From Nesterenkonia sp. PF2B19 (lineage in GTDB: Bacteria; Actinomycetota; Actinomycetes; Actinomycetales; Micrococcaceae): DNA of 64,000 nt. The notes beneath the pieces were generated by a model, which was not told the DNA's origin, did no database searches, and was given only the letters and a program-made list of their open reading frames with translations. The position numbers and the translations under genes are program-made. Below, piece by piece: positions 3,023-62,026 of the stretch. Each line of letters starts with the position of its first letter. Positions within the stretch are counted from its first letter, which is position 1. Location of the stretch: positions 1 through 64,000 of the forward strand of contig NZ_MDSS02000008.1 of NCBI RefSeq assembly GCF_001758425.2, read 5' to 3'.

Positions 3023-4009
3023 GTGAGCAGTGATCAGAGCCCGTCAGCACAGAGCCCGTCAGCACAGAGCCCGTCAGCACAGAGCCCGTCAGCACAGAGC
3101 CCGTCCACCGCTGGTCCTGCCGCGGCAGACGCCGCACCCTCCCCCGATGCCCTGCTGATCCGCCGTCTGGGCCCGGTGCTGCGGGCGGGCCTCAGCGCCG
3201 CGCTGGCTCCCGACCGGGAGACGCACCTCCTGCACGCGGAGGCCGCCCATCAGCTGTGCCTCGCGGACGGCCTCCTGGAGCTGCTGGACTGGACGCGCCA
3301 GGGTGTCCCCGCCGACCCGTTGGCCTGCCTGTGGCTCAGCTCCCTGCGGTGGCACCGGCTGCTGACCGGGGCCTTCCCCGATGGAGCCCCTGAGCCTCCG
3401 CGACGACCGCTCGACGCCGGTCTGGCCGCTCTGCTGCAGGAACCGCATCCGCGCCTGCGCCTGCAGGCAGACACCGGTGGGGTCTCCCTGGCGGGTCTCG
3501 CCGACGGCGAGATGGCCTACCTCTCGGCGCCCTCCCAGCCCTCCGCCCGCGATGCCGCCGGACTGGTGCGTCTGGTGCCGCTGGCACTGGTGCCCTATGT
3601 GGAGGAACAGATGCTGCTCAGCTGGGCGGAGCAGGCACTGGCCCTGACCCAGGGGCATCCCGAGGTCCTCAGCTCCGCGCGCGAGCTGATCAGCCTGATC
3701 CGGAGCATCGCTCAGCGTCCGCACATGCCCGAGGCCGAGCGACAGGCGGCCGTGCGGCGGGCCGATGACCTGATGGCCGGTGCCGACGACGGCGCCCGCG
3801 CCGTCGTGCGGGCCCAGGTCGCCGCGGCAGCCGCCTCGATGCAGCAGGACAAGCCGATGGAGCAGGACAAGCCGGTGGAGCAGAACAGCCCGGAGGACAG
3901 TGCCGCCCGCGTCGGTGCCGCACCAGCTCCGGTGCTCCCTCAGGAGCTCGAGGACGTTCTGAGGACATCTCTGCTCACGGACTGGGAGCAGGTCACCGCT
4001 CCGGCGTGA
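3023..4009 (+). CDS. Degenerate ADP-ribosylglycohydrolase (DraG)-like protein
   Basis: 328-residue protein from a GTG start. Residues 6-25 are four SPSAQ repeats encoded by a 15-base DNA repeat. The body resembles the middle of actinobacterial ADP-ribosylglycohydrolase proteins: a segment ADGLLELLDWTRQGVPAD followed by ACLWLSSLRW (around residues 80-110), then AGLVRLVPLAL and ALTQGHPEV (around 185-215), matching the family's MRLAPLAL and LTHGHP blocks. The N-terminal GDALG segment, the metal-binding Thr-Asp-Asp motif and the C-terminal DTD motif are not visible, so I infer a non-catalytic or highly diverged relative. The C-terminus has a second short repeat (QDKPMEQDKPVEQ). It converges on the exonuclease gene and overlaps its end by 17 bases. 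The DraG assignment comes from remembered family patterns, so it is tentative. Confidence 0.6.
   Translation: MSSDQSPSAQSPSAQSPSAQSPSAQSPSTAGPAAADAAPSPDALLIRRLGPVLRAGLSAALAPDRETHLLHAEAAHQLCLADGLLELLDWTRQGVPADPLACLWLSSLRWHRLLTGAFPDGAPEPPRRPLDAGLAALLQEPHPRLRLQADTGGVSLAGLADGEMAYLSAPSQPSARDAAGLVRLVPLALVPYVEEQMLLSWAEQALALTQGHPEVLSSARELISLIRSIAQRPHMPEAERQAAVRRADDLMAGADDGARAVVRAQVAAAAASMQQDKPMEQDKPVEQNSPEDSAARVGAAPAPVLPQELEDVLRTSLLTDWEQVTAPA
3038..3097 (+). repeat. 15-bp in-frame tandem repeat, 4 copies (SPSAQ)
   Basis: Four identical copies of AGCCCGTCAGCACAG plus a partial fifth, coding for SPSAQ pentapeptides at the start of the DraG-like protein. The unit length is a multiple of three, so copy-number change would alter the length of the tail without breaking the frame. 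It sits 24 bases from a different 14-base array, and both contain the string CAGCACAG. Confidence 0.9.
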
Positions 4010-5065
4010 GCCGCACGGCCGCCGTCGGCGGCGGCTCGGTCGCGGCGGGCCACGCGCGTCCCAGCATGCCGCGGAACTCGGACTCGTCGAGCACCCGGAG
4101 CGGCTGCCCGAGATCCCGCCGGCGCAGCGCGTCCCGGGCCTTGTTCGTGTGCAGCTGCTCCTGATCCGCGGGCCCCTGTACGGTGTACCCGTCACCGACC
4201 ACGACGATCGTGGTGCCGGCGGTCACCCGGGACGTCGTCTGACCGCCGTGGGCGGCCACGAGCCGCTTCGCCTCAGGTCGGGGAATGCTGAGTCCGCCGG
4301 TGAAGACCACGTGCTGGCCGTAGAGCGGATGCCGGGGATCCGCGTCCGCGGCGGGCGGGAGGTTGCGGCCCTCGTCCTGCCAGCGCAGCAGGTCGGGCAG
4401 CGCCTCGTCCGGCACCGTGCGCAGTCGAGAGTCGAAGATCGGCCCCATGGCCCGCACCTGCGTGGTGGCACGGGAGACACGGTCCGGTGCCCCAGACCAG
4501 GCAGGAAGCCGCAGCCGCTCCAAGCCCTGGGCGAGGAAGAGCTCCTCGAGGTCCGCGGCCCCGGTCCGCGAGGCGATGTCGCAGACGATCGCCGCCGAGG
4601 CGCGAGCGTCCTCGAGCGCATGATGGTGACGGCTGAGCACATGCCCCGCTTCGGCCGCGGCGCGAGGCAAGGCGTGGGAGGCAGGTCGTAGACCGCTCGG
4701 GACAGCTGCACGGAGCACCAGGACTCCAGACCCGGGGAGTCCATGCCGCTGACCTCCAGGGCGGCCTGGAACACCTCGACGTCGAAGGAGGCGTTGTGCG
4801 CCACCACGGTGTCATCGCCGATGAAGTCGATGACCTCGGGGAACACCTCGGAGAAGCGCGGCGCAGAGGCTACGGCCTCGGCGGTGATCCCGTGCACCGC
4901 GACGTTCTTGGGATCGAAGCGGTCGTAGCCCTCCGGCGGTCTCAGCTCGCGGTACAGTGTCTGCGCCTCGGCACCGTCGCGGATCCGCACCAGCCCCACG
5001 GAGCAGGGCGATCCCCGGAACCCGTTGGCCGTCTCGAAGTCGACCGCGGTGAAGTTCAGGCTCAC
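3993..5065 (-). CDS. DnaQ-like DEDDh 3'-5' exonuclease with BRCT domain, frame broken near 4682
   Basis: The N-terminal frame (start ATG 5065) has Exo I motif DFETANG at residues 9-15 and Exo II VAHNASFD near 87-94. After YDLP (about base 4682) the frame moves by one base, and the second frame supplies Exo III HHALEDA, a helical linker, and a C-terminal BRCT domain (LYGQHVVFTGGLSIPRPEAK and GTTIVVVGDG) as in epsilon-like exonucleases of actinobacteria. Restoring one C in the run at 4679-4685 gives a 357-residue protein with all catalytic residues. As sequenced it would make a protein lacking the essential Exo III Asp. It overlaps the rdgB stop by four bases and ends inside the convergent DraG-like gene. 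The break is probably a sequence error, though a true pseudogene cannot be excluded. Confidence 0.85.
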
Positions 5066-5718
5066 CGCTGGCCGGCCCCCTGGAGGGCCGCCACGATGTG
5101 CTCACGCAGGGCGGCGAAGGCCTGCCCCCGGTGAGAGATCGCGTTCTTCTCCGCCATCGTCAGCTCCGCGCAGCTGCGGGTCTCCCCCGTCGGCTGGAGG
5201 ATGGGGTCATAGCCGAAGCCGCCTTCGCCTCGCGGCGCGCCCAGCAGCGTCCCCTCGAGGCGGCCGATGCGCGTGGTCTCCTGGCCATCGGGGGTCACCA
5301 GGGCCGCCGCACAGACGAACGCCGCCCCGCGGTGTTCCGCGGTGATGTCGGCCAGCTGTTCGAGCAGCAGGTGCAGGTTCCGCGCATCGGAGGACTGCGC
5401 CCCCGCCCATCGGGCGGAGAAGATCCCCGGCGCTCCTCCCAGGACGTCGACGGCGAGCCCGGAATCATCGGCCACTGCCGGCAGGCCGGTCGCGTCGGCC
5501 ACGGCCCGGGCCTTGAGCAGGGCGTTCTCCTCGAAGGTCACGCCCGTCTCCGCGACGACGGGGCAGCCGGCGGCCGCGGCGTCGAGGACGGCGGCCTCCA
5601 GGTCGAGACCCTGCAGCCCGGGGGCGTCGGCGAGCAGGGCACGCAGCTCACGGACCTTCCCGGCGTTGTGGGTGGCCAGCACGAGGCGGGCTCCATGAGG
5701 GGCGGAGGTGGTGCTCAC
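5062..5718 (-). CDS. rdgB: Non-canonical purine NTP pyrophosphatase (RdgB/HAM1)
   Basis: House-cleaning enzyme that hydrolyses dITP/XTP to the monophosphates. 218 residues, from a GTG start at 5718 that overlaps the rph stop (GTGA). Family motifs: [16 protein letters not shown] at the N-terminus, [13 protein letters not shown] near residues 60-72, [23 protein letters not shown] near 82-105, GFGYDPIL and the C-terminal [13 protein letters not shown]. It is in the conserved order rph-rdgB in the clpS-murI-rph operon. Confidence 0.95.
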
Positions 5719-6455
5719 GAGGCCAGCGCCTCCTGCTGCAGTCGAGTCAGCCGCGCAGTGCCGGTCAGAGCCAGGTCCAGCAGGGAGTCCAGCTCGTCCC
5801 GGCGGAACGGGGCTCCTTCAGCAGTGCCCTGGACCTCCACGAACTCTCCGTCGCCCGTGGCGACCACGTTCATGTCGGTCTGCGCCGTGGAGTCCTCTGA
5901 GTAGGGCAGGTCGAGCACCGGCGTGCCGTCTGGCAGGATCCCCACCGAGATCGCGGCCACGGATCCGGTCAGGACCTCGGCGCGACGCGCCACGTGGCCC
6001 TGCTCCCGAGCCCACGCCACCGCGTCGGCGAGCGCCACATAGGCGCCGGTGATGGCGGCGGTGCGCGTGCCGCCGTCGGCCTGGAGGACGTCGCAGTCCA
6101 GGGTGATCATGTTCTCCCCCAGTGCGGCCGTGTCCACCACTGCCCGCAGGGACCGTCCGATCAGTCGCGAGATCTCGTGGGTGCGGCCGCCGATCTTCCC
6201 CTTCACGGATTCGCGGGAGGAGCGGGTGTTGGTGGCCCGCGGCAGCATCGCGTACTCGGCGGTGACCCACCCGGTGCCGCGGCCCTTGAGCCATCGAGGG
6301 ACGTTCGACTCGAAGGAGGCGGTGCACAGCACGCGGGTGTCACCGAACTCGATGAGGGCGGATCCCTCGGCATGTCCGGACCAGCCTCGGGTGATGGTGA
6401 TCTCACGCAGCTGGTCGGGTGCGCGGCCGTCGGCTCGCAGGAGGTTCTCAGTCAC
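5715..6455 (-). CDS. rph: Ribonuclease PH
   Basis: Phosphorolytic 3'-5' exoribonuclease that trims tRNA 3' ends, 246 residues. The sequence [56 protein letters not shown] and the C-terminal [22 protein letters not shown] match RNase PH along its whole length. GTG start at 6455 overlaps the stop of the MBL hydrolase gene by four bases. Confidence 0.96.
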
Positions 6456-7303
6456 GCTGTGGTCTCACGGTCCTCTCGGGATGATGCGACGAATGTGGTG
6501 ACGGCCGGGGTCGGCGCGCCCACCTGATAGGTGACGCCGCCGACTGCGACGGCGATGTCGCCGTCGTAGGTGGCGGCCGCGTGCTCCAGCAGGACCTTCT
6601 TGGAGGTCCATACGGGGATGTGGGTCAGCAGCAGGCGCCCCGCCTCGGCGGCGGAGGCCATCTCACCGGCGCGTCGGCCGTTGAGGTGGACGCCCTCGAT
6701 GTGGTCGTCACGGCCGTCCTCGAAGGCGGCCTCGCACAGGAACAGGTCCGTGCCGCGCGCAGCCTCTACGAGGTTGTCGCAGGCGTCGGTGTCGCCGGAA
6801 TAGGTCAGCGTCCTCAGGCGACCATCGGCTCCCGGGGCCTCGACGCGCAGGGCATAGGCCTCGTCGATGGGATGCCGCACCGGGATCGCCGTGATGCGGA
6901 AGGGCCCGATCTGCTCGACTTGCCACGGGTTCCAGCTGTGGAAGTCGAAGTCCGGGTGCATGCCAGGGTCGGGCTCCATGCCGTAGGCGTTGGCGATGCG
7001 CTGATCGGTGTTCAGCGGCCCGAACACCGGAAGGTGGGGGCCCGGCCAGCCCCCGGGGCGCCAGCGGATGGCCACGTGGAGGCCGCACAGGTCCATGTAG
7101 TGGTCCGGGTGTAGGTGGCTCAGGCACACCGCATCCAGGTCCTCCAGGGCGATGTGCTGCTGCAGCTTGCCCAGGGCGCCGTTGCCGAGGTCCAGGATGA
7201 TCCGCCACGTGCGCCCGTCGTGCTCGGCGCTGAGCAGATAGCACGACGCCGGGGACTCCGGCCCGGGGAATGAGCCGCTGCATCCGATGATCGTCAGTTC
7301 CAT
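6452..7303 (-). CDS. MBL-fold metallo-hydrolase (RNase Z-like)
   Basis: Metallo-beta-lactamase fold protein of 283 residues. The metal site motif HLHPDHYMD lies near residues 60-68, with further ligands in SGDTDACDN and at the C-terminal LTHIPVW. The start ATG at 7303 ([24 protein letters not shown]) matches the actinobacterial family; an upstream in-frame extension to 7387 is Arg/Pro-rich and lies over the end of murI. The conserved position between murI and rph is typical of actinobacteria, where it is often labelled cyclic-phosphodiesterase or RNase Z-like. Substrate not determinable here. Confidence 0.9.
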
Positions 7304-7319
7304 GTCCTGCCCCGTCCCC

Positions 7320-8989: not shown

Positions 8990-8992
8990 GGG

Positions 8993-9325: not shown

Positions 9326-10674
9326 GTGACAGATTCATTCCGCCGCGAGGCCTCCGGCCCGTCCCCGGCCCCGAGCTCGTCCACCGCCCTGCTGACCGAC
9401 CAGTACGAGCTGACCATGCTCCAGGCCGCGCTGCACTCGGGCGCGGCGCACCGGCGCTGCACCTTCGAGGTCTTCACCCGCAGCCTGCCTGCCGGGCGCC
9501 GCTACGGCATCGTCGCCGGCACGGGTCGTCTGCTCGAGGGACTGGCGGACTTCCGCTTCGGGGACGAGGAGCTGGGCTTCCTGGCGGACCATCGGATCGT
9601 CGACGATGCGACGCTGGACTTCCTGCGCGGCTACCGCTTCAGCGGCAGCATCCACGGCTACGCCGAGGGTGAGATCTTCCTGCCGCATTCGCCGGTGCTG
9701 CGCGTGGAGTCCACCTTCGCCGAGGCGACCCTGCTGGAGACCTATGTGCTCTCGGTGCTCAACCATGACTCGGCGGTGGCCTCGGCCGCGTCCCGCATGA
9801 CCATGGCCGCGGGCGATCGGCCCTGTGTGGAGATGGGCTCCCGCCGCACCCAGGAGTCCTCAGCGGTCGCCGCGGCGCGCGCAGCCGTGATCACCGGATT
9901 CTCCGCGACCTCGAACCTGGAGGCCGGACGCCGGTGGCAGCTGCCCACATTGGGCACCGCGGCGCACGCCTTCACCCTGCTGCATGATTCCGAGGAGCAG
10001 GCCTTCGCCGCCCAGGTGGAGGCCTTCGGCGCGGGCACCTCGCTGCTGGTGGACACCTATGACGTCGAGGCGGCGGTGCGGCGGGCGGTGGAGATCGCCG
10101 GCCGGGAACTGGGCGCGGTCCGCCTGGACTCGGGCGACCTCGTGGAGCAGGCCCATCAGGTCCGCGCCCTGCTGGACTCGCTGGGCAACACCGAGACCCG
10201 CATCATCGTCACCTCGGATCTCGACGAGTACGCGATCGCCCGTCTGCAGTCCGCTCCGGTGGACTCCTACGGGGTGGGCACCCAGCTGGTGACCGGATCG
10301 GGGGCTCCCACCGCCTCGATGGTCTACAAGCTGGTGGAGCGCACCGACGACGACGGCGCCCCGGTTCCGGTCGCCAAGACGGCGGTGGGCAAACGCAGTG
10401 TGGGCGGCACGAAGCATCCGGTGCGGACCTATGACGGCGACGGTGTGGCCGACGCCGAGGTGATCGGCGTGGGCCACGCCCCGCGGCTGGAGACGGACTC
10501 GTTCCGCGAGCTGATGGTGCCGCTGGTCGTCGACGGCGAGATCCGCACTGAGCACACCGGCGCGCCGGGGGTCGAGCGCGCCCGCGAGCGTCACCGGGCT
10601 TCGGTGGCGGAGCTGCCGCCCGCGGCCGCCCGGCTGCAGGACGCGAGCCGGTCCTGCCCACGATCTTCTCGTGA
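9326..10674 (+). CDS. pncB: Nicotinate phosphoribosyltransferase, frame broken near 10640
   Basis: Converts nicotinate and PRPP to nicotinate mononucleotide in the Preiss-Handler NAD salvage route. GTG start at 9326. Motifs include LLTDQYELTMLQAALHSG near residues 23-40, FEVFTRSLPAGRRYG, the PRPP-site region VRLDSGDL near 265 and YGVGTQLVTG near 315. The frame has no stop where expected and would run on to 11374 across the next gene. A shift of one base at the GG of 10639-10640 gives the normal ending GREPVLPTIFS and a TGA at 10672-10674, for 449 residues. I infer a GGG to GG loss in the sequence. It pairs with pncA 2 kb downstream. Confidence 0.9.
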
Positions 10675-10732
10675 GGCCCCGGGGCTCACCGACCCGCAGC
10701 TGACCGGCCCGCAGCTGACCGGCCCGGAGCCG

Positions 10733-11293: not shown

Positions 11294-11346
11294 CTGCGGC
11301 CATCCTCTCCGACGACACGTCCTGTCCCCTCGATCCTGCCCAGTTT

Positions 11347-11361
11347 TTGCAGTTTCTGCAA
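11347..11361. promoter_or_regulatory. Palindromic operator candidate for the XRE-cupin regulator
   Basis: TTGCAG-TTT-CTGCAA is a perfect inverted repeat with 6-base arms, lying midway in the 109-base gap between the divergent regulator and thioredoxin-reductase-like gene. Size and position suit an XRE dimer site. Assignment is by position only. Confidence 0.6.
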
Positions 11362-11402
11362 GATGTCTTTCTGAGAACGTGTCGCAGGAGGACCATGGAG
11401 CC

Positions 11403-12454
11403 ATGACCACAGACACTCCTCACATCACTCCGTCCACCGACCACTCCCCCTCCACCGCCGAGGGAGAGCAGTATGACGCCCTCGTCATCGGCGGCGGCCC
11501 CGCCGGGCTCAGCGCCGCCGTCGCCCTGGGACGCTCCCTGCGGCGGGTGCTGATCATCGACGCCGGAGCCCCGCGCAATCGCTTCGCCTCCCATATGCAC
11601 ACGGTGCTCGGCCACGAAGGGATCGATCCCGCCGAGCTGCTGCGTCGCGGCCGCCAGGAGGCGCTGAGCTACGGGGCCGACATCATCTCCGGGCGCGTCA
11701 CCCGGCTGGCCGAGGCCACCGGTGCCGGCCCCGCGTCCATGGTCGCCGCCCTGGAGGACGGCCGGACCGTCTTCGGCGGCGTCGTCATCGCCGCCGCAGG
11801 CCTGGCCGACCAGCTCCCGGAGATTCCCGGCCTGGCCGAGCGCTGGGGCCGTTCCGTGCTCCACTGCCCCTACTGCCACGGCTGGGAGGTCCGGGGACAG
11901 CGCATCGGCGTGCTGGCCACAAGCCCGTTCGCCCTCCACCACGCCGAGCTGCTGCGCCAGTGGACCGACCGGATCACCTTTTTCAGCGCCGGCGCCGGAG
12001 AGCTCTCCGAGGAGACCGCCGCCCGCCTGAGCGCACGGGGCGTGAGGATCGAGCCTGTCGAGGTCACGGAGGTCGAGGGGGCAGGTGATGCGCTCTCCGG
12101 GGTGATCCTGGCCGACGGGCGCCACGTGCCGGTGGACGCGCTGTTCACCCTCGGGGCGCTGCGCCCCCATGACGGCTTCCTCGCCGGCTTCGAGCTGGAC
12201 CGAACCCCGAGCCCCATGGGTGACGTCCTCGCCGTCGACGCCACCGGCCGCACCAGCCACCCACGCATCTGGCCGCCGGGAACGTGGCCAGCCCGGCAGC
12301 CAATGTGGTGGTGTCGATGAGCGGGGGCACCATGGCCGGCGCCGGGGCCAACATGGCGCTGGTGACCGAAGACTTCGACCTCGCCCAGCAGACCGCCCAG
12401 CAGCAGGACGCCGCGCTCGACGGCACGCCAGGAGCCCTCGCATCGCGCACGTGA
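11403..12454 (+). CDS. Thioredoxin-reductase-like NAD(P)/FAD oxidoreductase, frame broken near 12271
   Basis: FAD-dependent disulfide oxidoreductase of the class found beside XRE-cupin regulators. ATG 11403 with GCAGGAGG upstream. FAD loop GGGPAGLSAAVALGRSLR near residues 30-47, redox site HCPYCHGWE near 156-164, and after the break the second FAD motif AAGNVASPAANVVVSM with a C-terminal helix. Frame one ends out of register at 12320; adding one G in the GG at 12271-12272 joins the parts into a 350-residue protein ending at TGA 12452-12454. No thioredoxin gene is adjacent, so the electron acceptor is unknown. Confidence 0.86.
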
Positions 12455-16502: not shown

Positions 16503-18083
16503 GGGCCTGCACCTGCTGGAACAGCTCCGGCTGGCTGCGGTCGAAGACCCGTGCGCCCAGGAGGAGTCCCGCCCCCAGGATGCCAGCTCCCTTGAGCACG
16601 GCGACCGTCGCCGTCACCGCGCCCACCCAGCCGATGCCGGTGAACGTCCAGACGATCCAGCCCACCAGCTCCGGGACCATGAGCAGTCCGATGGCCGCCA
16701 TGGAGAGGAGCTGGATCACCATGACCCGCCCCAGCGCGCCCTGCGGCTGTTTGAACGGGCTGTCCCCCGGCTTGGGCACCGGGTAGGTGAAGCGCGCCGA
16801 GACCAGGGAGGAGACGCCCACAGCGGTCAGCAGCATCCCGACGCTGACCGTCGTCGTCAGCACCATCGGCATCAGCCACCGGCGATCCAGGAAGGGACCA
16901 TCGCGGCGAGCAGCGTCGCCGGAAGGGCGAAGGTCAGCAGGGCGACAGCCCGACCCGCGCGATCGTCGACGCCGCGGATCCCGGCGGTCACATGCAGGCT
17001 GAAGGCCGTGTGGTCATAGGAGACGTCCGCGGAGATCGCATAGCCGAGGGTGAAGGCGAGGAACGGTCCAAGGCCGTAGAGGAAGACCGTCTGGCCGGTC
17101 TGCAGATGCAGGAAGATCGCCAGGATCACCAGCCCGGGGACCACCACCAGCGATCCCCCATACCGCGGGTCCTTGAGCCAGTACGTCAGCGACCGGGCCG
17201 CGACTGCGCCCCACGGGCGGTCGGGGAAGATCGTGAAGAGACCCAGCCTGCCCTGCTGAGCGGATCGTCGTCGTGTCTTCGGTGCCGGCGGTCGTTCGGT
17301 GAGCGTGACGAGACCGGCCCGGACCACCAGCAGGGCCGCCGCGATCGTTGCAGCGAGCACCAACAGGTGCAGCGCGAGGGCTCCCCAGCGACCGGCGGCG
17401 ACGTCCCCGGGCAGCGCCGCCCCCGCGCCGAGCGGGGTGTAGGACACCACGCCGGCGATCGTCGGCATCGCCTCGGCGAGACCTCCGGCGGTGTTCTGCA
17501 CCATGGTGATCGCCGGCCAGATGAGCATGGCGAGCCCCAGGCCCAGGATCGCCATGAGGTCCCGGAACCGGCGCCCGTCGAGCCAGGCGCTGGCCGCCGT
17601 CACCGCGGCCTGGCTGACCAGGGAGAACGTCAGCAGCAGCACGGGCGCGCTGACGAACGCGACGACCAGCGCGGCAGGCTCCGCCCGCCAGTAGAGGATG
17701 TAGCCGATCAGCCACAGCAGCGTCAGGACCGACCCGATCGAGACCAGCCCGCACAGCAGCAGACCCACCACCAGGGTGCGCCGCGGCAGCCCGTAGGTCA
17801 CCAGCTGCTTCGGATCCATCACCGTGTCTCCGCCGGTCAGGAAGAGCGGGACCAGCAGCCAGAGGAGCATCACGCCCGCACCGAGCAGCACCGAGTACGT
17901 CTGGCGCAGCTCCGGCTCCAGGCCCACCAGAGGTGACCCGCCGGCCACCATCCCGGCGACGACCAGTCCCGTGATGCCCACCCCGTAGAGCAGGGCGAAG
18001 AGGGTGCCGACCACCTGCCAGGCGGATCGCTTGAAGCTGTTGGCGGACAGCGTGAGCTTGAGCCGGATCAGAGTCGCAACCAT
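16495..18083 (-). CDS. ABC exporter membrane protein, frame broken near 16872
   Basis: Multi-pass permease partner of the ATPase at 18068-18880, with about 12 hydrophobic segments. The frame from ATG 18083 stops at 16872 after PSWIAGG, and the next frame continues immediately with PMVLTTTVSVGMLLTAVGVSSLVSARFTYPVPKPGD, the typical end of this actinobacterial permease. Restoring one C or G around 16872-16884 gives 529 residues, the usual length. The ATG at 16872 that would start a separate 125-residue protein has no ribosome binding site. Overlaps the ATPase gene by 16 bases. Substrate unknown. Confidence 0.85.
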
Positions 18084-20003: not shown

Positions 20004-22387
20004 TCAGTCGAGGATGTGCACGTCATTCACGATATCGTGCACGCCCAGCAGGACGACCGGGTCCTCGTCCTCGGCGGGGATGTGGAGGATCATCGATTCC
20101 CGGCTGACGACGTCGGCGTCGGCGGTGGTGGAGCTCGTGCCGGCGAGCTCGGCGAGCGTCTCGTCCTCGAAGATGATCTGGTCCCCCGGCTCGTGCGGGC
20201 GCAGCTGCATCGTCGAGTCGAAGGACCCGACGGCCAGCACGGAGCCGTCCGGGAGCCGGAGAGCCGTGGTGCCCTCCTCGGCCAGGGGCCGGGTGTAGGA
20301 GATGTCGATGTCTGCCGCGGACTCCTGCACCTCTTCCTGGTAGGACTGCAGGTCTTCGATGTAGGGGTTGTCCTCGACGTGCATGCCGAAGTAGTAGTCC
20401 CGGTTGTTCAGGAACACCGCCGTGCGCACCATGGCGAAGTCGGGGGCGAACCGCGCCACCTCCGCATCGGGGTCCACCGGCACCACACCGCCCTCCTCAG
20501 CGGAGATCGCCGGGAACTCCGTGCCGGGCATCATCATCACCGCCTGGGTCAGGCGGTAGTTGTCCCGCGCGGACTCCTGTTCGATGACCAGCACCTGCGG
20601 GATCTCCGAATCCTCGTGCCGGGTGATCACGACTGCCTGACGCGGGAACTCACCGGAGGAGGTCACGGCGGCGGCCAGCACCTCGGAGCCGACGGGCTCC
20701 GACGCTGAGCCGTCAGCGATCTCCTGGTTCCGGTAGGTCAGCTCACGGACTTCGAAGGCATTGCCCGCCACGCGCTCCTGCAGGACGTCGACGTCCTGCT
20801 CCTCGTCGCCGGCCTCGACCACCTCCGCGATGTCGTCGACGATGCGCTGCAGCTGACTCTCGAGCAGCACGGAGTACTCCCCGGCCTCCGGCAGGTCGCC
20901 GGCCTCTCCGGTGCCGGAGGTGCCGCCCTCCTCGGCGCCCTCCTCGGCGCCCTCCTCGGCGTCCTCATCGGCAGCCTCGCCGTCGTCAGCGCCGTCAGAG
21001 TCGTCAGCGTCCTCAGCGTCCTCAGCGTCCTCAGCGTCAGCGGCCGCATCCTCTGCGGCCTCGTCCTCCGCCTGCTCCTCCTCCGGCGCGGCCTGCAGAT
21101 CAGCGGCGATGTCGACCCCCGACACCGCCGGGACGGCGACGGCGGCCAGCAGGGCGACCGACGAGCTGCGCCACCAGAAGGATCGCCGGCGGGGCTCCGG
21201 GGACTCAGCGGTGGGCTCGGTCACCTGGACCTCCTCGTCGTCCTCATCGCCCTCAGGGTGCGCGTCGGCTGGTTCGTCGGTCTCGGTCTCCGAAGGCTCG
21301 TCGGCAGACGTGGCGCCTTCAGCGTCGGCACCCTCGTCCGCTTCCCGGGGCGAAGGATCGACCTCGGCGTCCGCCAGGGCGGGATCGGTCTCTGCGGCGG
21401 TGTCTGCGGCGGTCTCTGCGGCGGTGTCTGCGGCCTCGTCGTCGGCGACGTCGGAGGAGGGCGCCTCCACGGCCGGCACCACGGTGGTGGGCTCCTCGGC
21501 CCCGGGTTCATCAACGCCGGGCTCATCAACGCCGGGCTCATCGGCCTCGGGCTCATCGACCTCAGTGGCTTCGCCCTCGGACGCGTTGCCCTCGGGAGCT
21601 GAGCCCTCGGGTGCCGTGTCTTCGGGCGCCGTGCCCTCGGGCGCCTCGTCATCGAGCGCCTCCGCAGAGGCCGTCGTCTCGGTCTCGGCGGCGGAATCGG
21701 TGCCCGCCGCGACAGGCACGTCGTCGTCGGCCACGACTTCCCCGTCATAGGCGGCGGCGAGCACATCCCGCTCCTTCCGCCGAGCCGCCAACGCCCGGTA
21801 GAACAGCACCAGCGCCAGAAGGATCAGCAGTCCGCCGACGATGATCAGGGCGATCCCCACGTGCTGTCCACGGGCTGCTCGACCTCCACGGCGACGGCCG
21901 ACGGGGCGGGCTCCTCGCCGTCACGGAAGATCATCAGTGCCCAGTCGCCGCTGTCATCCGGGGCCACCCAGCGGTAGACCAGCGGCCCCTCAGCGGTCTC
22001 GGTGGCCACCCACAGGTCCGAATCGGAGGGGTCCGGCACCTCGGACTCACCCGCGACGTGCTCCGCCACGACCTGCGCGTCCTGCTCGGGAGACGGCTCG
22101 TCGACGCCTGAGATCTGCACATGGGCGGCGTCGTCCACCCACGCCTCGATGTCGTCCAGACGTGCCAGGGCGATCGTGTACTCCCCCTCGGCCTCGAGGG
22201 TGAACTCCTCGCGGCCGTCGTCCAGGTCGACGATCCCGTCGGTGATCACGGTCAGCGGGGCGTCCTCGAGCTCAGGAGAGTGCGCCGTCACGGTCTCCTG
22301 AGGCGCCCAGACGGTCAGCTGGCCGATGCCGATCGCCAGAGCGGCCAGTCCGAGCAGGAAGGCGAGGAGCGAAGACAGGAAGCGCAC
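20004..22387 (-). CDS. Acidic low-complexity membrane protein, frame broken near 21856
   Basis: The first frame (GTG 22387, AAAGGA upstream) has one N-terminal membrane segment, an extracytoplasmic domain of about 130 residues (TLEAEGEYTIALARLDDIEAW ... PDPSDSDLWVATE) and stops at VDSTWGSP. One base added to the CCCC at 21855-21858 continues as TWGIALIIVGGLLILLALVLFYRALAARRK, a second membrane helix, which is the layout of the Arthrobacter homologues as I remember them. Next come a long Glu/Asp/Ala/Pro stretch, a third hydrophobic helix (SSSVALLAAVAVPAVSG), a second acidic stretch, and a C-terminal domain of about 300 residues. Joined length 794. Function unknown. Confidence 0.75.
20925..21720 (-). 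repeat. Acidic low-complexity coding segments
   Basis: Two tracts inside the membrane protein gene are built from short degenerate DNA repeats on GCC/GAG/GAC codons: 21480-21660 encodes runs such as DEPGVDEPGVDEPG and EGTAPEDTAPEG, and 20925-21050 encodes EDAEDAEDADD and EEGAEEGAEEGG. Degenerate codon choice keeps the DNA repeats imperfect. Confidence 0.7.
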
Positions 22388-22643: not shown

Positions 22644-24096
22644 GTGAGCTTCCTGCAGCGCCGCCTGAGACGGCTGGCCTCCCGTGGTCGAGGCCGTGGA
22701 GTGTCCGATCCGCGCCGCAGCATGCCGGGTCCCCAGGACGCGGGCCCCACCGAGGGAGGAGCTCCGTCCGCGTCAGAGCCAGCGCCCCGTCGTCGACGGT
22801 TCTCCGGTCTGCGCCGGGCCCTGCAGCCCATCATCGTCGACCCCGACGAGCCGGTCCTCCGCTATGACGCCTACGGGCTTCCGCCCGAATCCGGCCCGGA
22901 GACGAGACCGCCCCAGGACCCGCAGGAGCCCAGGACGGACGAGGCCGCGGCCGACGTCGGCGGCCGGGCCCACATCCGCCGCAGGGGACCAGGAGGGCGC
23001 GTCCCGCGAGACGGCACACTTCCAGGAGCCGACGCCGTCCCGTACGCTGCAGCAGGTCACCCAGATCACCCGACCGGTGTACACGGGCTTCATGTTCACC
23101 GTCGGCGTCGGCCTGGCGCTGCTGATCTTCTACATCGGCCAGACCAACACGCAGCTGCTGATCTGGATCGGTGCCGCGCTGTTCATCGCCCTCGGTCTCG
23201 ACCCCGTCGTCCGGGCGCTCGAGCGGTTGGGCCTGCCCCGGCCCGCCGGCGTGCTGGCCACCATGCTGGCCTTCGTCACGACCGTGTCCACCTTCATCGC
23301 CTGGCTCGCCCCAGCCGTCACGCAGCAGATGTCGAACTTCGTGACGTCGATCCCGCAGATCGTCTACGACATCTCCCGTTCCCCCTGGTTCCGACGGCTC
23401 GACGAGGACTTCCAGGTCCAGGACATCATCGACAACGAGGTTGCCCGCTTCGTCGCCGATCCGTCGAACATCACCAACGCGCTGGGCGGCCTCTTCGGCG
23501 TCGGGGCCGCCGTGCTCACCACCGGCTTCGGGATGCTCGTGGTGGCGGTGCTCGCGCTCTACTTCCTCGCCTCCCTGCCCACGATGAAGGCCTGGGGCTA
23601 CCGGCTGGTCCCCCGCTCCCGACGGCCCAGGATCCAGCATCTGGGCGATCGCATCCTCAACGGGGTCGGCTACTACGTCATCGGTCAGGCCTGTGTGGCC
23701 TTCCTCAACGGGGTGGTCGCCTACATCGCGATCACCATCGCCGGCGTGCCCTTCGGGGCGCTGTTCGCCGTCGTCGTCGGGGTGCTGGCCTTCATCCCGC
23801 TGGTCGGTCCGGTCACCGGCGGCTCTCTGGTGACGCTCATGGCGCTCACCGTCGACTGGCAGACCGCCGTGACGTTCGCGGCCATCTACTTCGTCTATCT
23901 GCAGATCGAGGCCTATCTGGTGTCCCCGCGCATCATGGCTCGCGCCGTGAGGATCCCCGCCGCGGTGGCCGTGATCTCTGTCATCGCGGGTGGCACGCTG
24001 CTGGGCGTCCTCGGAGCGCTCATGGCCATTCCGACGGCGGCCGCCCTCATGCTTCTCATCCGGGAAGTGCTCATCACGCACCAGGACAGTCGCTGA
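22644..24096 (+). CDS. AI-2E family transporter, frame broken near 22960-22990
   Basis: Eight-helix permease of the AI-2E/PerM family (autoinducer or ion export). The N-terminus reads in frame from GTG 22644 as a basic, disordered tail (QPIIVDPDEPVLRYDAYGLPPE), then the frame changes in the linker around 22960-22990, and all membrane helices lie in the new frame from about 22990 (RTLQQVTQITRPVYTGFMFTVGVGLALLIFYIG) to the stop. Family hallmarks: PRPAGVLATMLAF, GDRILNGVGYYVIGQ and AFIPLVGPVTGG. The change is +1, so either one surplus base (GGGG at 22984-22987) or two lost bases. Joined length about 484. Confidence 0.85.
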
Positions 24097-27250: not shown

Positions 27251-28143
27251 TCAGCTCGCGGACAGAGCGTCGGCACCGGCGATGAGCTCGGTGAGCTCCT
27301 GGGTGATCTCGGCCTGGCGGGCATTGTTGCGCAGCAGCGTGTACTTGCGGATCAGCTCGTCGGCGTTGTCCGCAGCGGACTTCATCGCCCGCTGACGGGC
27401 CGCCAGCTCGGAGGCCGCGGCCTCGAGCATGGCCGAGTAGATGCGCGATTCGACGTAACGCGGCAGCAGGGCGTCCAGCACCTCGGCCGGGTTCGGCTCG
27501 AACTCGTAGAGCGGCAGCATCTCGTCCTCGGACTCGACCTCCTTCTCCACGACGGCCAGCGGCAGCATGCGGTGGACCACCGGCTCCTGGCTGATCATCG
27601 ACTTGAACTCGGTGTAGACCAGGTACAGCTCGTCGACCCCGCCGTCGGCGGAGTCCTGGACGAACCGTTCGATCAGCGCGTCGCCGATCTCCCGGGCCGT
27701 CTCCACGGACGGAGAGTCAGTTCCGCCGGTCCAGACCTGGTCGTACTCCCGCTCACGGAAGTCGTAGTACGCCTGAGCCTTGCGGCCGTAGAGGTACGGA
27801 CGCACCTCCTTGCCCTCCTCACGGAGGTAGGCGACGAGCGACTCCGCGCGCTTGAGCACATTGGTGGAGTAGCGCCGGCGAGGCCGCGGTCAGAGGTCAT
27901 GATGAGCACGGCCGCGCGGGTCGGGTTCTCCGACTTCTGCGTGAGCACGTGCTCGATGTCGTCCTGCGAGGCCACGGCCGAGACTGCTCGGGTGATGGCC
28001 TCCGAATACGGCAGCGAGGCCTGCACACGCTGGCGGGCCTTGCCGATCCGCGAGGTCGCGATCAGCTCCATCGCCTTGAAGATCTTCTTCATCGACGACG
28101 TCGATGCGATCTTCTGACGGTAGACCCGGATCTGGGCTCCCAT
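27251..28143 (-). CDS. atpG: ATP synthase gamma subunit, frame broken near 27872
   Basis: Rotor subunit of F1. The first frame, from ATG 28143 ([33 protein letters not shown]), runs to TSDRGLAGA; one base later the second frame gives [23 protein letters not shown] and on to [22 protein letters not shown]. Restoring a C in the GGCGC at 27871-27875 gives 297 residues. Because this subunit is essential for the operon to work, a sequence error is much more likely than a true mutation. Confidence 0.93.
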
Positions 28144-30021: not shown

Positions 30022-30830
30022 TCAGCCGGCGAGCCTCCGGTGGAGGTCGTTGAGTCGGGTGGCGACCGTGGAGTCCACCACCTCGTCACCGACCTGCACC
30101 CGGATCCCACCGACAACGGAGGGGTCGACGACGACGTCGAGCCTGAGCTCTCGGCCGAAGTACCGGTCGAGGCTGGCGCTCAGACGCTGCCGGTGGGCGG
30201 CGTCGAGCTCCTTGGCGACGGTGACCTGGGCGATCCAACGCTGCTGACGTGCCGCGATGCGCTCGGCGAAACGCTCGACGAGCGCCTCCGGCCGGAGTCC
30301 GCGAGGAGTCGAGACCGCGCGGTCGATGAGCAGGCGGGCCTCGGCGCCGGCCTCCGGTGAGAGGCGCGCCGCCAGCTTCTGCTTCGACTCGGCCGGAGCC
30401 TGGCTGTCCGTCAGCGCCCGCTGGACCTCGTGGGAGGACAGCACCGCCCGGCGGAACGCCAGCAGCTCCGACTCCAGCGACTCGAGGCCCCGCAGCCCGT
30501 CCTTCTCGGCCTGCGCGGCCACGACGGCCACCGCCAGGCGCTCCACCGCGTCGCCGAGGTCACGCTCCCGGCTCCAGCGCTGCGAGGCGATCGCCTCGAG
30601 GACCGTCACTGTGGCCGGACGCGCCTTGGCTCCGAAGAGGCCGCGCACGACGCTGCCCGCTCCTGCGCCTCACGGGCAGGGTCGGTCAGGCTGCGGCGCA
30701 GACCCGCCGAAGAGTCCAACACGTCGAGCGCGCCGAACAGCTCATCCGCCACGGGAAGTTCGCTGGCCGCGAGAGTCTCCGACAGCTGTTCCTGCAGGGT
30801 GGCGAGGGATTCACCGGTCACCGCAGCCAT
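30022..30830 (-). CDS. atpH: ATP synthase delta subunit, frame broken near 30654
   Basis: Peripheral-stalk subunit (OSCP-like), the actinobacterial long form. The first frame from ATG 30830 (AVTGESLATLQEQLSETLAASELPVADELFGALDVLDSSAGLRRSLTDPAREAQER) goes out of register near 30654; the second gives VRGLFGAKARPATVTVLEAIASQRWS through IRVQVGDEVVDSTVATRLNDLHRRLAG. One added C in the GGGCAGC there gives 269 residues, the expected length. The ATG overlaps the atpF TAA by one base (TAATG). Confidence 0.93.
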
Positions 30831-32993: not shown

Positions 32994-33426
32994 TCAGCCG
33001 GAGCCGTTCCTGCCACTCTCCGGGTCGATCGGCGTGCGCAGGCGCAGGAAGGCGGCGATCTCGCCGGACTGCCAGGCGATGACGACGGCGGCCGCGCCCC
33101 CACGGTCCACCCCGGCAGCACCCACCCAGGGGCCGTCACCGAGGAGAGGACCACGGCGAGCACCGCCAGCTTCAGGGCGAAGCGAGCATGAAGGCTGTGA
33201 TGGCCTGGCTGGGCATGACCCGCTCGGCCACGTCGACCAGCACGAGGCTCACCGCCGAGAGGACCAGCACCATCGAACCGCCCAGTGCGGCGCTCATCCC
33301 GGCGTCGACGCCGGCCACCGCCAACGCCAGCAGGACGGCGGCCACCGTCATCGCCCCGCCGGTGGTCAGGGCGAGCCACAGCACGCGGCGCCAGCCGGTG
33401 GCACGGGGGAAGATCCGCCCGCTCAT
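32994..33426 (-). CDS. AtpI-like ATP synthase-associated membrane protein, frame broken twice
   Basis: Small four-helix membrane protein in the atpI position. Three frames in succession read on smoothly: ATG 33426 to ITAFML (helices WRRVLWLALTTGGAMTVAAVLLALAVAGV and GGSMVLVLSAVSLVLVD), then RFALKLAVLAVVLSSVTAPGWVLPGW, then AAAVVIAWQSGEIAAFLRLRTPIDPESG to the TGA at 32994. One lost base near 33184 and one near 33096 explain this, giving 144 residues. The start overlaps the wecA-like stop (ATGA). Probably helps assemble the c ring, by analogy. Confidence 0.8.
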
Positions 33427-43700: not shown

Positions 43701-45172
43701 TCAGTCCTGCGCGGCGAAGCCGGTGTCGCGGCGGAGCATCTGCTCCTCGGTCTCGCGGCGGATGAGCACCCGGGAGGCCCCGTCCTTCACCGCGACCACA
43801 GCGGGACGGGCCAGGAGGTTGTAGTTGCTCGAGAGCGAATGACAGTAGGCACCGGTCGCGGGGACCGCGAGGAGGTCGTCCCGCGCCGTCGTCGTCGGCA
43901 AGTATACGTCCCGCACGACGATGTCTCCGGATTCGCAGTGTTTGCCCACTATGCGAGACAGCACATGGTTCCCGGTCACCTTCCGACCCGCCAGCACGGC
44001 GGAATAGTCGGCGTCGTAGAGCACCCCACGGGCGTTGTCGCTCATCCCGCCGTCCACGGCCACATACCGACGGGACAGCGTCTGGCCGGAAGGCCCGTCC
44101 ACTTGGACGTCCTTCTGCACGCCCACCCGGTACAGGGTCACCCCGGCAGGACCGACGATCGCCCGGCCCGGCTCGATGGAGATCCGTGGCACCTCGATCC
44201 CCTCGCGTCGCAGGCGGTGCGTACCGCACCGGCCAGGGCCTGGGCGATCTGCCGGGGGTGCCGCGGGGAGTCGGCCTCGGTGTAGGCGATGCCATGGCCT
44301 CCGCCGAGATCGAGCTCCGGCAGCTCGACCCCGTGCCGGGCCCGCACCCGACCGAGCAGGCCGATGAGCTTGGCGGCTGCCACCTCGAAGCCCTCCGGCT
44401 CGAAGATCTGCGAGCCGATGTGGCAGTGCAGTCCGCGCAGCTCGATGTGCTCGGCCGCCAGGGCGTGCTCGACTGCGGACCAGGCCGGCGAGCCGGCGTA
44501 GGGGTTCTCCTGGTCGGTGTCGGCGTCGGAGGACGGGGTCAGCGAGAGTCCGAACTTCTGGTCCTCATGCGCGGTGGCGATGTACTCATGGGTCGAGGCG
44601 TGCACCCCGGGGGTGAGCCGCAGCATCACCGGGGCGGTGACGCCGGCGGACCTCGCCAGCTGATCGATCCTCGCCAGTTCGTCGAGCGAATCAGCGATGA
44701 TCCGGCCGATGCCGGCCTTCAGTGCGCGGACGATCTCGGCATCGGACTTGTTGTTGCCGTGCAGGCCGATGCGGGCGGGCTCGACCTCGGCGGCCAGCGC
44801 CACGGCGAGCTCACCACCGGAGGCAGTGTCCACGCACAGGCCCTCCTCGGCAGCCCAGCGTGCCGCGTGCGTGCTCAGAAAGGCCTTGCCCGCATAGAAC
44901 ACGTCCACGTCGGTCTCCGGGGCGAACGCCTCGGAGAAGGCCTCGACGAAGGCCCGGGCGCGGCTCCGGAAATCGTCTTCGCTGATCACATACAGCGGCG
45001 TCCCGTGCTGTGCCGCCAGCGTCTCGACGTCGACTCCACCGAGGACGAGACGCCCCTGGTCGTCCCGATGAGCGTCAGCCGGGAACAGCTTGTCCTCCAG
45101 CGCAGCGCTGTCGGTGAGCGGCCGGAGCCACTCCGGGGCCAGCGGGTGGGGCCCGGCGACTGTCTCGGTCAT
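43701..45172 (-). CDS. lysA: Diaminopimelate decarboxylase, frame broken near 44206
   Basis: PLP enzyme of lysine synthesis. Frame one from ATG 45172 holds DVFYAGKAFLSTHAARW (PLP lysine), LHGNNKSDAEIVRAL, GLHCHIGSQIFE and LDLGGGHGIAYTE; it goes out of register after TACDA near 44206. Frame two gives EGIEVPRISIEPGRAIVGPAGVTLYRVGVQKD, the active-site VAVDGGMSDNARGVLY and GAYCHSLSSNYNLLARPAVV. One added C in the GACGCGAG there gives 490 residues. Lies six bases after argS. Confidence 0.93.
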
Positions 45173-46946: not shown

Positions 46947-46947
46947 G

Positions 46948-54500: not shown

Positions 54501-54511
54501 GGAGACCACAG

Positions 54512-55870: not shown

Positions 55871-55914
55871 CCGCTCCAGCCGCGTCCGCGGGGGCCACGC
55901 GGCCCTGTTCAGAC

Positions 55915-55955
55915 AGGGCGGGCCCCTGAACCTGAGCGGTTCAGGGGCCCGCCCT
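55915..55955. terminator. 18-bp perfect bidirectional hairpin
   Basis: AGGGCGGGCCCCTGAACC and GGTTCAGGGGCCCGCCCT flank TGAGC. It lies between convergent genes (binding protein ending at 55870, purU ending at 55990) and likely stops both transcripts. Confidence 0.85.
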
Positions 55956-55989
55956 CACCGGCGCGGATGCTCTGCGGCTGATCCGCAGC

Positions 55990-57572: not shown

Positions 57573-60480
57573 CGCGGCGACTCCCTTCCGGGTCGTAGAG
57601 GACGGTGGGTTGGATGAGGACGTCGACGAGTCGGCCGTCCACCGGGGTGCGCAGCGTCTCACCGATGCGCTCTCGGCCCCGGGAGATCAGCGCCAACCCG
57701 AAGGTCCGGCCCAGGGCGGCCGACCGGTACGACGAGGTCACCCAACCCTCCATGGGCACCGGAATCTGGGCGACGTCGGTGTCGGCGGCGATCAGCTGCG
57801 CCCCTTCGAGGAGTCGGTGCTCCGGGTCCGCCGGCAGCACGGAGACCAGCTGCTTGCGGTCTTCGCGCTGGTTGTCCGGACGCGCGTAGGAACGCTTGCC
57901 GATGAAGTCCTTGCGGGTCGAGACGACCCACTCCATGCCGGCGTCCTGGGGCGTGACGGTGCCGTCGGTGTCCTGTCCGACGATGATGTACCCCTTCTCG
58001 GCGCGCAGCACGTGCATGGTCTCGGTGCCATAGGGTGTGATGCCGTAGGGAGCCCCCGCCGCGGCGATGTCCTCCCAGACCTGTGCCCCGTACCAGGAGG
58101 CCACATTGACCTCGAAGGCCAGCTCCCCGGAGAAGGAGATCCGGCAGACCCTGGCGGGGATGCCGGAGGCCAGAGTCGTCTCCCGGAAGGCCATGAACTC
58201 GAAGGCCTCCGCAGAGACGTCCAGGTCGGGGGCCAGCTCAGCGATGACGTCGCGGGACCTCGGCCCGGCCACAGCCACGGTGGCGTACTGCTCCGTGACC
58301 GAGGTGCACGTGACGTCCAGGTCCGTCCACTCGGTCTGCAGCCACTCCTCCAGCCAATCCAGGACACCGGCCGCCCCACCGGTCGTGGTGGTCATCAGAT
58401 ACCGGTCCTCGTCCAGACGCAGGGTCACACCGTCGTCGAAGATCATCCCGTCAGCGCCACACATCACCCCGTAGCGGGCCTTGCCCGGAGCGAGCTTCTT
58501 GAACGCGTTCGTGTAGATGCGGTTGAGGAACTCTCCGGAGTCGGTCCCGCGGATCTCGATCTTGCCCAGGGTGGTGGCGTCCATGAACCCCACTGACTCC
58601 CGCACCGCGGCGCACTCACGAAGCACCGCCTCGTCCATCGACTCACCCTCCTGGGGGAAGTACCAGGGGCGCTTCCACTGGCCGACGTCCTCGAAGACAG
58701 CCCCGTGGGCCACGTGCCAGGAATGCATCGGCGTGATCCGGGCCGGGTCGAAGAGATCTCCACGACGCCGTCCGGCCAGTGCGGCGAAGGACACCGGTGT
58801 GTACGGGGGCCGGAAGGCAGTGATCCCGATTCCCTGCGGGTTCTCCTTGCCCAGCAGCACCGCCAACGCGCCGATCAGCGCCGCACTGCTCGTCTTGCCC
58901 TGGTCATGGGCGGTGGAGATCGAGGTGTACCGCTTGACGTGCTCCACCGAGCGCATCCCGGCCCCAGCGGCGCGCATCACATCGGCCACCGTCTGATCCC
59001 GCTGAAAGTCCACGAAATGGTTCCGGTACGCCTCGGCGTCGGCGAGATCTTCATGGCCCGGCGCCGGCACAAGCCATACCGGACGGGCGGGTGCCAGAGC
59101 CTCCGGATCCGCCTGAGGAACCTGCGGGGTGCGGGCGAAGCCTGTGTCACCGGCTGCCGCGGCCCCAGCGTCGGCACCTTCCTGCAGCGCCCCAGCAAGG
59201 TCGAGGCAGCCGTTGATCATGCCCGCGGTCCGCTGGCCGGCCACCGGCCTCTCCGGCACGAAGGCCGCCAGGGAGTCTTCCCAGCGGATCGCGCCCTGCC
59301 GCTGAGTGTGCAGGTGGATGGTCGGGGTGAATCCCCCGGAGAGGGCGAGCACATCGGTCTCGACCACCGTGACCGCACCGGTGAGCGTGCCGTCCTCGGC
59401 CAACCCGCTGATGCGCACGGCCGACAGGTCTCCCTGATCGTCAGCATCAGTGCCCGCCACCACGGAACCGGCGTGCACGGGCACGCCCGCGGCCTGAGCA
59501 CTCAGGGCGCGCTCCGAGAGCTCCGGCCGGGAATCGACCACCGCGGCAACCTCGCCTCCAGCCTGCTGAAGATCCTCCACCAGGTCATAGACCCAGTCCC
59601 CGGTGGTCGCGATGACGGTCCGCTCACCGGCCAACACGCCGTAGCGGTTGAGGTAGCTGCGCACCGCACTCGCCAGCATGATGCCCGGGCGGTCGTTGTC
59701 CGCGAAGACCAGGTGCCTCTCATGGGCGCCGGTCGCCAGCACGACCTGAGAGGCCCGGATGTGCCATACCCGCTCGCGCGACACCCCATCGGCCCCGGCT
59801 CCCGAGAGATGGGCGCGCCGGCGTTCTACGGCGACCAGGTAGTTCGCGTCATAGCTGCCGATGGCCGTGGTGCGCTGCAGGTGCACGCTCTCCGGGCTGT
59901 CCGCCAGTTCTCCGACCACACCGGTGATCCAGGCCCGCGCGGGCTGTCCGTCGATGCGCGCGCTGCGGCGGTCCAACAGCTCGCCGCCGGCCTCGGCCTG
60001 CTCGTCCACCAGCATCACCCGCGCACCCGAGCGGGCGGCCTCACGGGCGGCGGCCAGACCGGCGGCCCCGGCACCGACCACCAGCACGTCGGTGTGGACG
60101 TGCTTGTGGTCGTAGTAGGCCTCGTCAGCGGCAGGGTCCAGGGTCCCCAGCCCGGACAGCAATCGGACGTCCAGTCCGTCGGTGAGCTCCACCGCAGGCG
60201 CGGAGAGCATCGATTCGGTCACGGCCCCCGGCTGGTCGCCGCGCACGGAGATCAACGCATTGGGCTCCTCCACGCCGGCCGCGAAGATGCCCCGAGGGCG
60301 ACCCAAGTAGATGGAGTCACCCACCCGCAGCCTCCCGGAGGCGAGCATCGCGCTGGCCACGGTGTCACCCTGCACCCCGCTGATCGTCTCACCGTCGAGG
60401 GTGAAGCGGCGGGGCCGGGTGGTCTCCACACGGGCATGGGGTGCCGCCGCAGCAGGCAGGCGGCGCGAGGTCACGGTCAT
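57565..60480 (-). CDS. soxA: Sarcosine oxidase alpha subunit
   Basis: 971 residues. N-terminal 100 residues resemble the Fer2-like domain ([28 protein letters not shown]), then the NAD/FAD domain with [35 protein letters not shown] near 135-168, and a C-terminal GcvT-type folate-binding half starting near residue 600 ([65 protein letters not shown]). It passes the one-carbon unit to THF. ATG overlaps the soxD stop (ATGA). Confidence 0.95.
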
Positions 60481-60779
60481 GGGTGGGCTCCTTCCTGCGG
60501 ACCCTGGGGAAGGTCGGTCATCCGCCCGACGGGACGGGTCTCGTGGAACTCATAGGTGACGGTGTCCCGCACGGCGTCGAACCATTTCCGGCACCCCAGG
60601 GCGTGGACCCACCGTTCGGCGAATCGTCCCTTGGTGTTGTCCCGGTAGAACAGGAAACGCGCCCATGCGGCGTCGTCGAGGGCGTGCGGGTCCTCCGGGT
60701 AGGAGACCTCCGCCTGGCCCCCATAGGTGAACTCGTTCTCATTGCGGGGTCCGCAGTGCGGACAAGGGATGAGCATCAT
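60477..60779 (-). CDS. soxD: Sarcosine oxidase delta subunit
   Basis: 100-residue zinc-binding subunit. Start [21 protein letters not shown] with Cys and His ligands, then [17 protein letters not shown]. Lies 30 bases after soxB. Confidence 0.94.
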
Positions 60780-60809
60780 GTCAGGACCTCTTCGGGGAAG
60801 ACGTGGGGG

Positions 60810-62026
60810 TCAGTGGGCGACGGCGGCGGCACCGTGTTCGTCGATGAGGTGCCCGGTCTCGAACCGGTCCAGGGCGAACGGCGCGTTGAGCGGATGGGGT
60901 TCGTCGTGGGCGATCGTGTGGGCGAAGGTGTACCCGGACGCCGGGGTCCCCTTGAAGCCGCCGGTCCCCCAGCCGCAGTTCACGTAGAGCTGGTCGACCG
61001 GCGTCTTGGAGATGATCGGCGAGGCGTCCAACGTGGTGTCCACGATCCCGCCCCAGGTGCGCAGCACGTGCGCCCGAGCGAAGATCGGGAACAGCTCCAC
61101 TGCGGCAGCCATCTGCTCCTCGATGCCGTGGAACGCCCCGCGCTGCCCGTAGCCCACGTACTGGTCGATCCCAGCCCCCATGACCAGCTCGCCCTTGTGC
61201 GCCTGAGAGACGTAGACGTGGACATGGTTCGACATCACCACCGTGGGGTGCACCGGCTCGAACAGCTCCGAGACCAGCGCCTGCAGCGGATGGGACTGGA
61301 TCGGCAGCTCCAGGCCGGCCAGCCCGGCGACCACCGAAGAATGCCCGGCCGCTGCGAGGGCGACCTTCCCCGCGTGGATCCGGCCTCTACTGGTCTCCAC
61401 CCCGGTGACCCGGTCCCCCTCGAAGAGGAACCCGGTGACCTCGCAGTTCTGGATCAGATCCACTCCGAGCTCGGAGGCGCGCCGCGCCAAGGCCCAGGCC
61501 ACATGGTCATGCTTGGCGATCCCTGCCCGCGGCTGGAAGGTCGCCCCCATCACCGGGTACCGGATGTCGTCACCGATGTTGAGGATCGGGCAGACCTCTT
61601 TGACCTCCTGCGGGCTCAGCCACTCGGCGTCGACCCCGTTGAGCTTATTGGCCTCCACCCGCCGCACCGACTCCCGGACGTCCTCCAGGGTGTGCGCCAG
61701 ATTCAGCACTCCGCGCTGGGAGAAGAGGAAGTCATAGTCCAGTCGTCGGGCAGCTGCTCCCAGAGCTTCAGGGACTGCTCATAGATCGCCGCGCTCTCAT
61801 CCCAGAGGTAGTTCGAGCGGATGATCGCCGTATTGCGGGCCATGTTCCCACCGGCCAGCCACCCTCGCTCCACCACCGCGACATTGGTGATCCCGTGGTG
61901 AGCTGCCAGATAGTACGCGGTGGCCAGCCCATGGCCCCCTCCACCGACGATCACCACGTCATAGGACCGCTTCGGCTCCGGGTTGCTCCAGAGGAAATCC
62001 GGGTGCTCCGGCAGCATCTCAGCCAT
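60810..62026 (-). CDS. soxB: Sarcosine oxidase beta subunit, frame broken near 61742
   Basis: FAD/FMN-bearing catalytic subunit. Frame one from ATG 62026: [51 protein letters not shown], to QLPDD; frame two, one base later: [37 protein letters not shown], the FMN-histidine region [17 protein letters not shown], and C-terminal [16 protein letters not shown]. Adding one C in the GACGACTGG near 61742 gives 405 residues, exactly family length. ATG overlaps the glyA TGA by one base (TGATG). Confidence 0.93.

Follow-up and report, generated by a model that had tools for sequence, protein, structure and literature searches.

Single-base frame breaks in a sample of the Nesterenkonia sp. PF2B19 draft genome are very probably consensus errors

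Draft genomes obtained on indel-prone sequencing platforms may contain many genes that are split by single-base indels, and in the excerpted text of PMC12046094 Ion Torrent genomes are over-represented among the assemblies that RefSeq has left out for 'many frameshifted proteins', with a mean run length of 5.5 at the single-base indels of Ion Torrent Listeria assemblies. For the Ion Torrent Personal Genome Machine (PGM), an excerpt of PMC4719071 describes indels at fixed positions, for the most part deletions of C/G or insertions of A/T, and an under-reporting of homopolymer length. We analyzed a window of 64,000 nucleotides (positions 1 to 64,000 of contig C123, 92,324 bp) of the genome of the permafrost bacterium Nesterenkonia sp. 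PF2B19 (G000 below), in which an earlier reading based on the letters alone (the sequence-only reading) had placed twelve single-base breaks in eleven genes. The PF2B19 breaks resemble those of the frameshifted drafts, as far as they are described in that excerpt, in that many genes are split by single-base indels, deletions are dominant, and such events are far rarer in relatives handled in the same way; they differ in showing no homopolymer enrichment. They resemble the position-specific PGM indels of the second excerpt in being single-base deletions, mostly of G or C and not confined to long runs, but the G/C share in PF2B19 (19 of 24 sites) is no more than composition predicts. They also resemble bacterial pseudogenes, in which reading frames are interrupted compared with relatives, but the PF2B19 breaks lie in core single-copy genes, and the sequence downstream of them is normally constrained and has no further stops.

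The first PF2B19 assembly was obtained by PGM sequencing with 200-bp chemistry and the MIRA assembler, and consisted of 2,924 contigs of about 2.6 Mb, in which 3,434 coding sequences and 24 catalase genes were reported (PMC5391407). Version 2 (GCA_001758425.2) is among the genomes compared in PMC8875376, where the table portion of the article gives 134 contigs and 3,696,919 bp. By ATP synthase alpha its best named relatives belong to Nesterenkonia, and the 80 named loci of that comparison were used for the genus only.

Proteins from the syntenic stretches of five Nesterenkonia genomes (G003, the nearest, and G002, G010, G013 and G015) were aligned to contig C123 with a purpose-written, frameshift-tolerant protein-to-DNA aligner, and an event was called -1 when PF2B19 was one base short relative to the frame of the reference protein. 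As shown in Table 1, 11 of the 12 breaks placed by the sequence-only reading were reproduced within 6 bases in comparison to G003, all of them as -1 events. Intact proteins of the relatives aligned across each break, and at nine sites the relatives covering the site on the strand of the gene were unanimous (from 2/2 to 5/5). In this count three of the events are placed at 30650, 33100 and 44209, slightly away from their G003 positions in Table 1 (30656, 33097 and 44212). At 33097 and 33183 the G003 frame was antisense, and G002 and G010 gave both breaks on the gene's own strand. The rest of contig C123 contained more -1 events relative to G003, at positions 64369, 64521, 64721, 66798, 68216 and 77049. 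Three of the -1 breaks in positions 64001 to 84000 (L101) fall in one serine dehydratase gene.

The frequency of such events was evaluated by a reciprocal frameshift test, in which each genome served in turn as reference and as target. The comparison was extended beyond C123 to four more PF2B19 stretches (L111 to L114, with L108 to L110 and L115 to L117 left out), so that five contigs were represented (C123, C40, C55, C70 and C85). In loose counts the control genomes had events as well, most of them close to the start of a gene, since the reference frames ran from stop to stop. To deal with this noise in the counts of all genomes, we added a strict filter: the reference had to show a coding-like GC content at third positions, and identity had to be good in both flanks of the event. 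This filter also loses well-supported sites relative to G003 (33097, 33183, 44212, 64721 and 77049), and in the reciprocal direction it lost one event in a carbohydrate kinase gene of G003. With G003 references and PF2B19 as the target, 135,828 coding bases were aligned and contained 27 strict events, 25 of them -1, whereas G003 as the target of PF2B19 references had 0 strict events in 130,245 bases. On C123 alone the numbers were 12 and 0, respectively. When all reference pairs in the C123 region were combined, the distinct strict positions numbered 14 in PF2B19, 0 in G003, 0 in G015, 1 in G002, 2 in G010 and 1 cluster in G013, although the aligned coding length per pair was unequal (up to 75 kb for PF2B19 and 15 to 70 kb for the others).

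An event was regarded as verified if a family model spanned the site in a relative without a change of frame, or if several relatives agreed. By this definition 23 of the 27 strict events were attributable to PF2B19, and 22 of these 23 were -1 (p=5.7e-6 relative to a 1:1 expectation), and the rate of verified events was 0.169 per kb of coding DNA (0.107-0.254). The corrections made on checking (one site dropped and four left unverified) reduced this rate slightly and did not alter the conclusion. The breaks were spread over all five contigs compared rather than being restricted to one locus, with 12 strict events on C123, 2 on C40, 4 on C55, 4 on C70 and 5 on C85, of which 12, 1, 2, 3 and 5, respectively, were verified. 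Homologues of murF, mraY, murD and ftsW were broken on C85 by strict events, and a cystathionine gamma-synthase gene and a DEAD-box helicase gene were broken on C70. The filter kept 106 of the 122 gene alignments; 60 of these were event-free, 21 had discarded events only, and the remaining 25 had a strict or added event, which was verified in 21 of them.

Whole-genome searches found that the sole atpG and the sole murD of PF2B19 are each in two pieces, whereas in each search all 17 other genomes had the gene unsplit. The amino-acid identity to G003 after the breaks was 0.848, with no in-frame stop (20 genes), compared to 0.841 in the 60 event-free genes. Thus, neither the relaxed constraint nor the further disabling changes after a break that would be expected of pseudogenes were found.

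The frequency and direction of the breaks, their spread over the sample, the involvement of single-copy core genes and the normal downstream constraint were observed directly. Because breaks are present on all sampled contigs, are mostly in one direction, have no counterpart in the reciprocal test, affect the sole atpG and murD and are followed by normally constrained sequence, we think it very probable, on comparison of sequences, that they are base-calling or consensus errors in the draft genome and not changes in the DNA of the organism. In the consensus of all five sampled contigs there would then be about 0.17 single-base deletions (in rare cases insertions) per kb of coding sequence, the DNA of the living strain would be intact at the break sites, and the sequencing platform would be the cause of the deletions. 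The sequence-only reading had likewise proposed an assembly error that made inferences of gene loss unsafe, and the breaks on four other contigs, the reciprocal result, the split atpG and murD and the normal constraint now bear this out. Of its two arguments for error, the uniform direction held in the enlarged sample, whereas the homopolymer context was not enriched over background.

Several results weigh against error as the general explanation. The classical homopolymer signature of such errors is absent, and a full-text literature search for PF2B19 did not find the sequencing platform behind the 134-contig version 2. In the excerpt of PMC4719071, PGM insertions exceed deletions overall and deletions dominate in homopolymers, which does not speak for the PGM as the cause; the cited Ion Torrent literature does not decide which platform version 2 came from. 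The rpoB, rpoC and dnaE1 genes of PF2B19 (about 11 kb) are unbroken, a mild shortfall from an expectation of about two breaks (P about 0.15). Before the breaks the amino-acid identity was 0.795, with 4 in-frame stops in the upstream parts, which we put down to reference frames that would start in front of the true starts. The control genomes carry some strict frameshifts themselves, as given above, and 4 of the 27 strict events were unattributed (C40 1674, C70 18118, C55 2250 and C55 7543). The first three either lacked a family model across the site or were unchecked. The fourth lies in an FGGY carbohydrate kinase gene (L112:7215-8711) that is open for 499 amino acids in PF2B19 and has a frame change in G003 (L124 near 14347), and here it may be G003, not PF2B19, that is altered.

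A second DnaE-family polymerase gene of PF2B19 (G000:C46:45382-48553) is in two overlapping pieces and is in one piece in G003. In G010, two neighboring +1 frame changes (L099:14761 and L099:15134) were backed by up to three references, and represent either an error in that genome or a real change.

A more specific form of the error explanation is flow-space homopolymer undercalling, in which G or C runs are read one base too short. The Ion Torrent origin of the first assembly and the under-reported run lengths of the PGM speak for it, and at a few sites (for example, 4678, 10643 and 27873) a G or C run of two or three bases is indeed shortened. The sequence-only reading had held that the lost base almost always shortened a G or C run, but this was not found when the lost bases were counted. 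The lost base was scored by comparison to G003 at 24 of the 27 -1 sites that were verified or added, the remaining 3 having more than one gap, and the divergence of roughly 20% makes the estimate less sharp. The lost base was G or C at 19 of the 24 sites (70% expected, p=0.38) and lay in a run of at least two at 11 of the 24 (43% of coding bases expected, p=0.84), and none of the 24 lay in a run of at least four, where about one was expected. The runs were of 1 to 3 bases in the relative, compared to the mean of 5.5 in the excerpted account of Listeria assemblies (PMC12046094). The longest run near 31 breaks was like that at random coding positions, and G+C near the breaks was slightly above background (0.738 vs. 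0.697). This set of 31 included one later rejected position (60787) and some unverified sites, whereas the 24-site counts are corrected. Homopolymer undercalling in particular is therefore unlikely, on the evidence of the run lengths.

Real mutations, resulting from decay of the genome during a long dormancy of the lineage in permafrost, would also interrupt frames compared with relatives. A decay of this kind in a living, cultured strain is untenable because the sole atpG and murD are split and the downstream sequence is normally conserved: pseudogenes of any age would drift, and the parts after the breaks have undiminished constraint and no stops. A culture of this aerobe with a broken ATP synthase and broken cell-wall precursor enzymes would hardly grow, and 21 verified broken genes relative to 60 event-free genes in the sample would be hardly viable. 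The near-uniform -1 direction also argues against decay, and we regard it as very improbable.

Pervasive ribosomal frameshifting or transcript-level correction, by which full-length proteins would be made from a correctly deposited DNA sequence, would agree with the conserved downstream frames. However, each of these proteins is encoded in a single frame in the congeners, rpoB, rpoC and dnaE1 have no break, and no k-mer around the 31 breaks clearly survived the number tested (the best 5-mer was present at 3 of 31, p 2.1e-4, 248 tested), which leaves this explanation scarcely credible.

Changes of a single base in the length of a repeat tract can switch genes, and slipped-strand switching at phase-variable tracts would produce single-base differences, but long tracts are absent from the scored sites, the short runs are not enriched and core genes are affected, so that phase variation has almost nothing to recommend it. 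Local gene decay as the cause was rejected together with permafrost decay, phase variation and programmed frameshifting.

Of the explanations considered, consensus error is the one that fits. The break sites of the window are listed in Table 1.

Table 1. Break sites in the PF2B19 window, with the position of the -1 event relative to G003 and the evidence from relatives and protein families.
Gene product and break	Coordinates	Strand	-1 event	Evidence
DnaQ-like 3'-5' exonuclease/BRCT protein (gene about 4004-5095), -1 break	4672..4687	-	4678	4/4 covering relatives; Pfam/NCBIfam on window pieces and G003 homologue
Nicotinate phosphoribosyltransferase, -1 break about 9 codons from gene end	10636..10650	+	10643	4/4 covering relatives; NCBIfam NF006698 on G003 homologue
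Pyridine-nucleotide-disulphide oxidoreductase (about 11340-12386), -1 break	12266..12280	+	12273	3/3 covering relatives; PF07992
Protein of about 530-550 amino acids without Pfam/NCBIfam match, -1 break	16868..16882	-	16874	5/5 covering relatives
Protein of about 720 amino acids without Pfam/NCBIfam match, -1 break	21849..21875	-	21859	3/3 relatives covering on this strand
AI-2E family transporter, variable N-terminal linker, possible +1 break (weak)	22955..23025	+		G003 only
atpG, F1F0 ATP synthase gamma, only copy found in genome, -1 break	27868..27878	-	27873	4/4 covering relatives
atpH, F1F0 ATP synthase delta, -1 break	30645..30660	-	30656	5/5 covering relatives; PF00213, NF009967
Small ATP synthase I-like protein adjoining atpB, first of two -1 breaks	33090..33105	-	33097	2/2 covering relatives on this strand
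Same ATP synthase I-like protein adjoining atpB, second -1 break	33176..33190	-	33183	G002 and G010
Pyridoxal phosphate (PLP)-dependent (diaminopimelate/ornithine/arginine-type) decarboxylase, -1 break	44202..44216	-	44212	5/5 covering relatives; PF02784 and PF00278 on relatives
soxB (sarcosine oxidase beta), -1 break	61737..61750	-	61744	G003 only, flanks 19/25 and 24/25; TIGR01373 spans site in G003

The break that the sequence-only reading had placed at 22960-22990, in the AI-2E family transporter gene, was the one that fared differently. A +1 event was found in comparison to G003, but only to G003 and with 7 of 25 identities before the event, whereas the alignment of G015 from 22894 onward follows the downstream frame and is free of events, and a single open frame holds the transporter domain. 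The PLP-dependent decarboxylase gene adjoins argS and a homoserine dehydrogenase gene, and is probably lysA. The ATP synthase I-like proteins of two relatives were matched by PF03899 with a score below the family cut-off. A gene break at 60787 (window positions 60780-60795, minus strand) was considered and rejected, as the position is upstream of soxD and the whole SoxD family match lies in the window's own frame. The one-base length difference from G003 at 60780-60795 is in a short gap after soxB, just upstream of the intact soxD.

Four long palindromes of about 65 to 110 bp were seen in the additional PF2B19 stretches (L111:12320-12435, L113:14665-14745, L113:13200-13280 and L111:10131-10215). 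G003 has more copies of them, and their matches occur in either orientation. Three of the four were folded and gave strong hairpins (z -4.2 to -10.0), and they are possibly elements of Nesterenkonia similar to repetitive extragenic palindromic (REP) sequences or miniature inverted-repeat transposable elements (MITEs). In another genome of the genus (G016; 2.7 Mb, 1 contig, 62% complete), the ATP synthase alpha gene is in five pieces (G016:C1:1416530-1418145), which suggests a far worse indel-ridden assembly.

The finding is an artefact and holds nothing new as biology; it serves as a warning on a single public genome, and the reciprocal frameshift test is a cheap screen for frameshift-ridden assemblies. 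The 3,434 coding sequences and 24 catalase genes reported for PF2B19 may have been inflated by frameshift-split genes and contig ends. Assuming 88% coding DNA, the whole assembly would hold about 550 breaks (350-830, Poisson interval), and therefore statements on gene loss, pathway gaps, pseudogenes or gene counts in this organism that are drawn from the PF2B19 assembly are unsafe.

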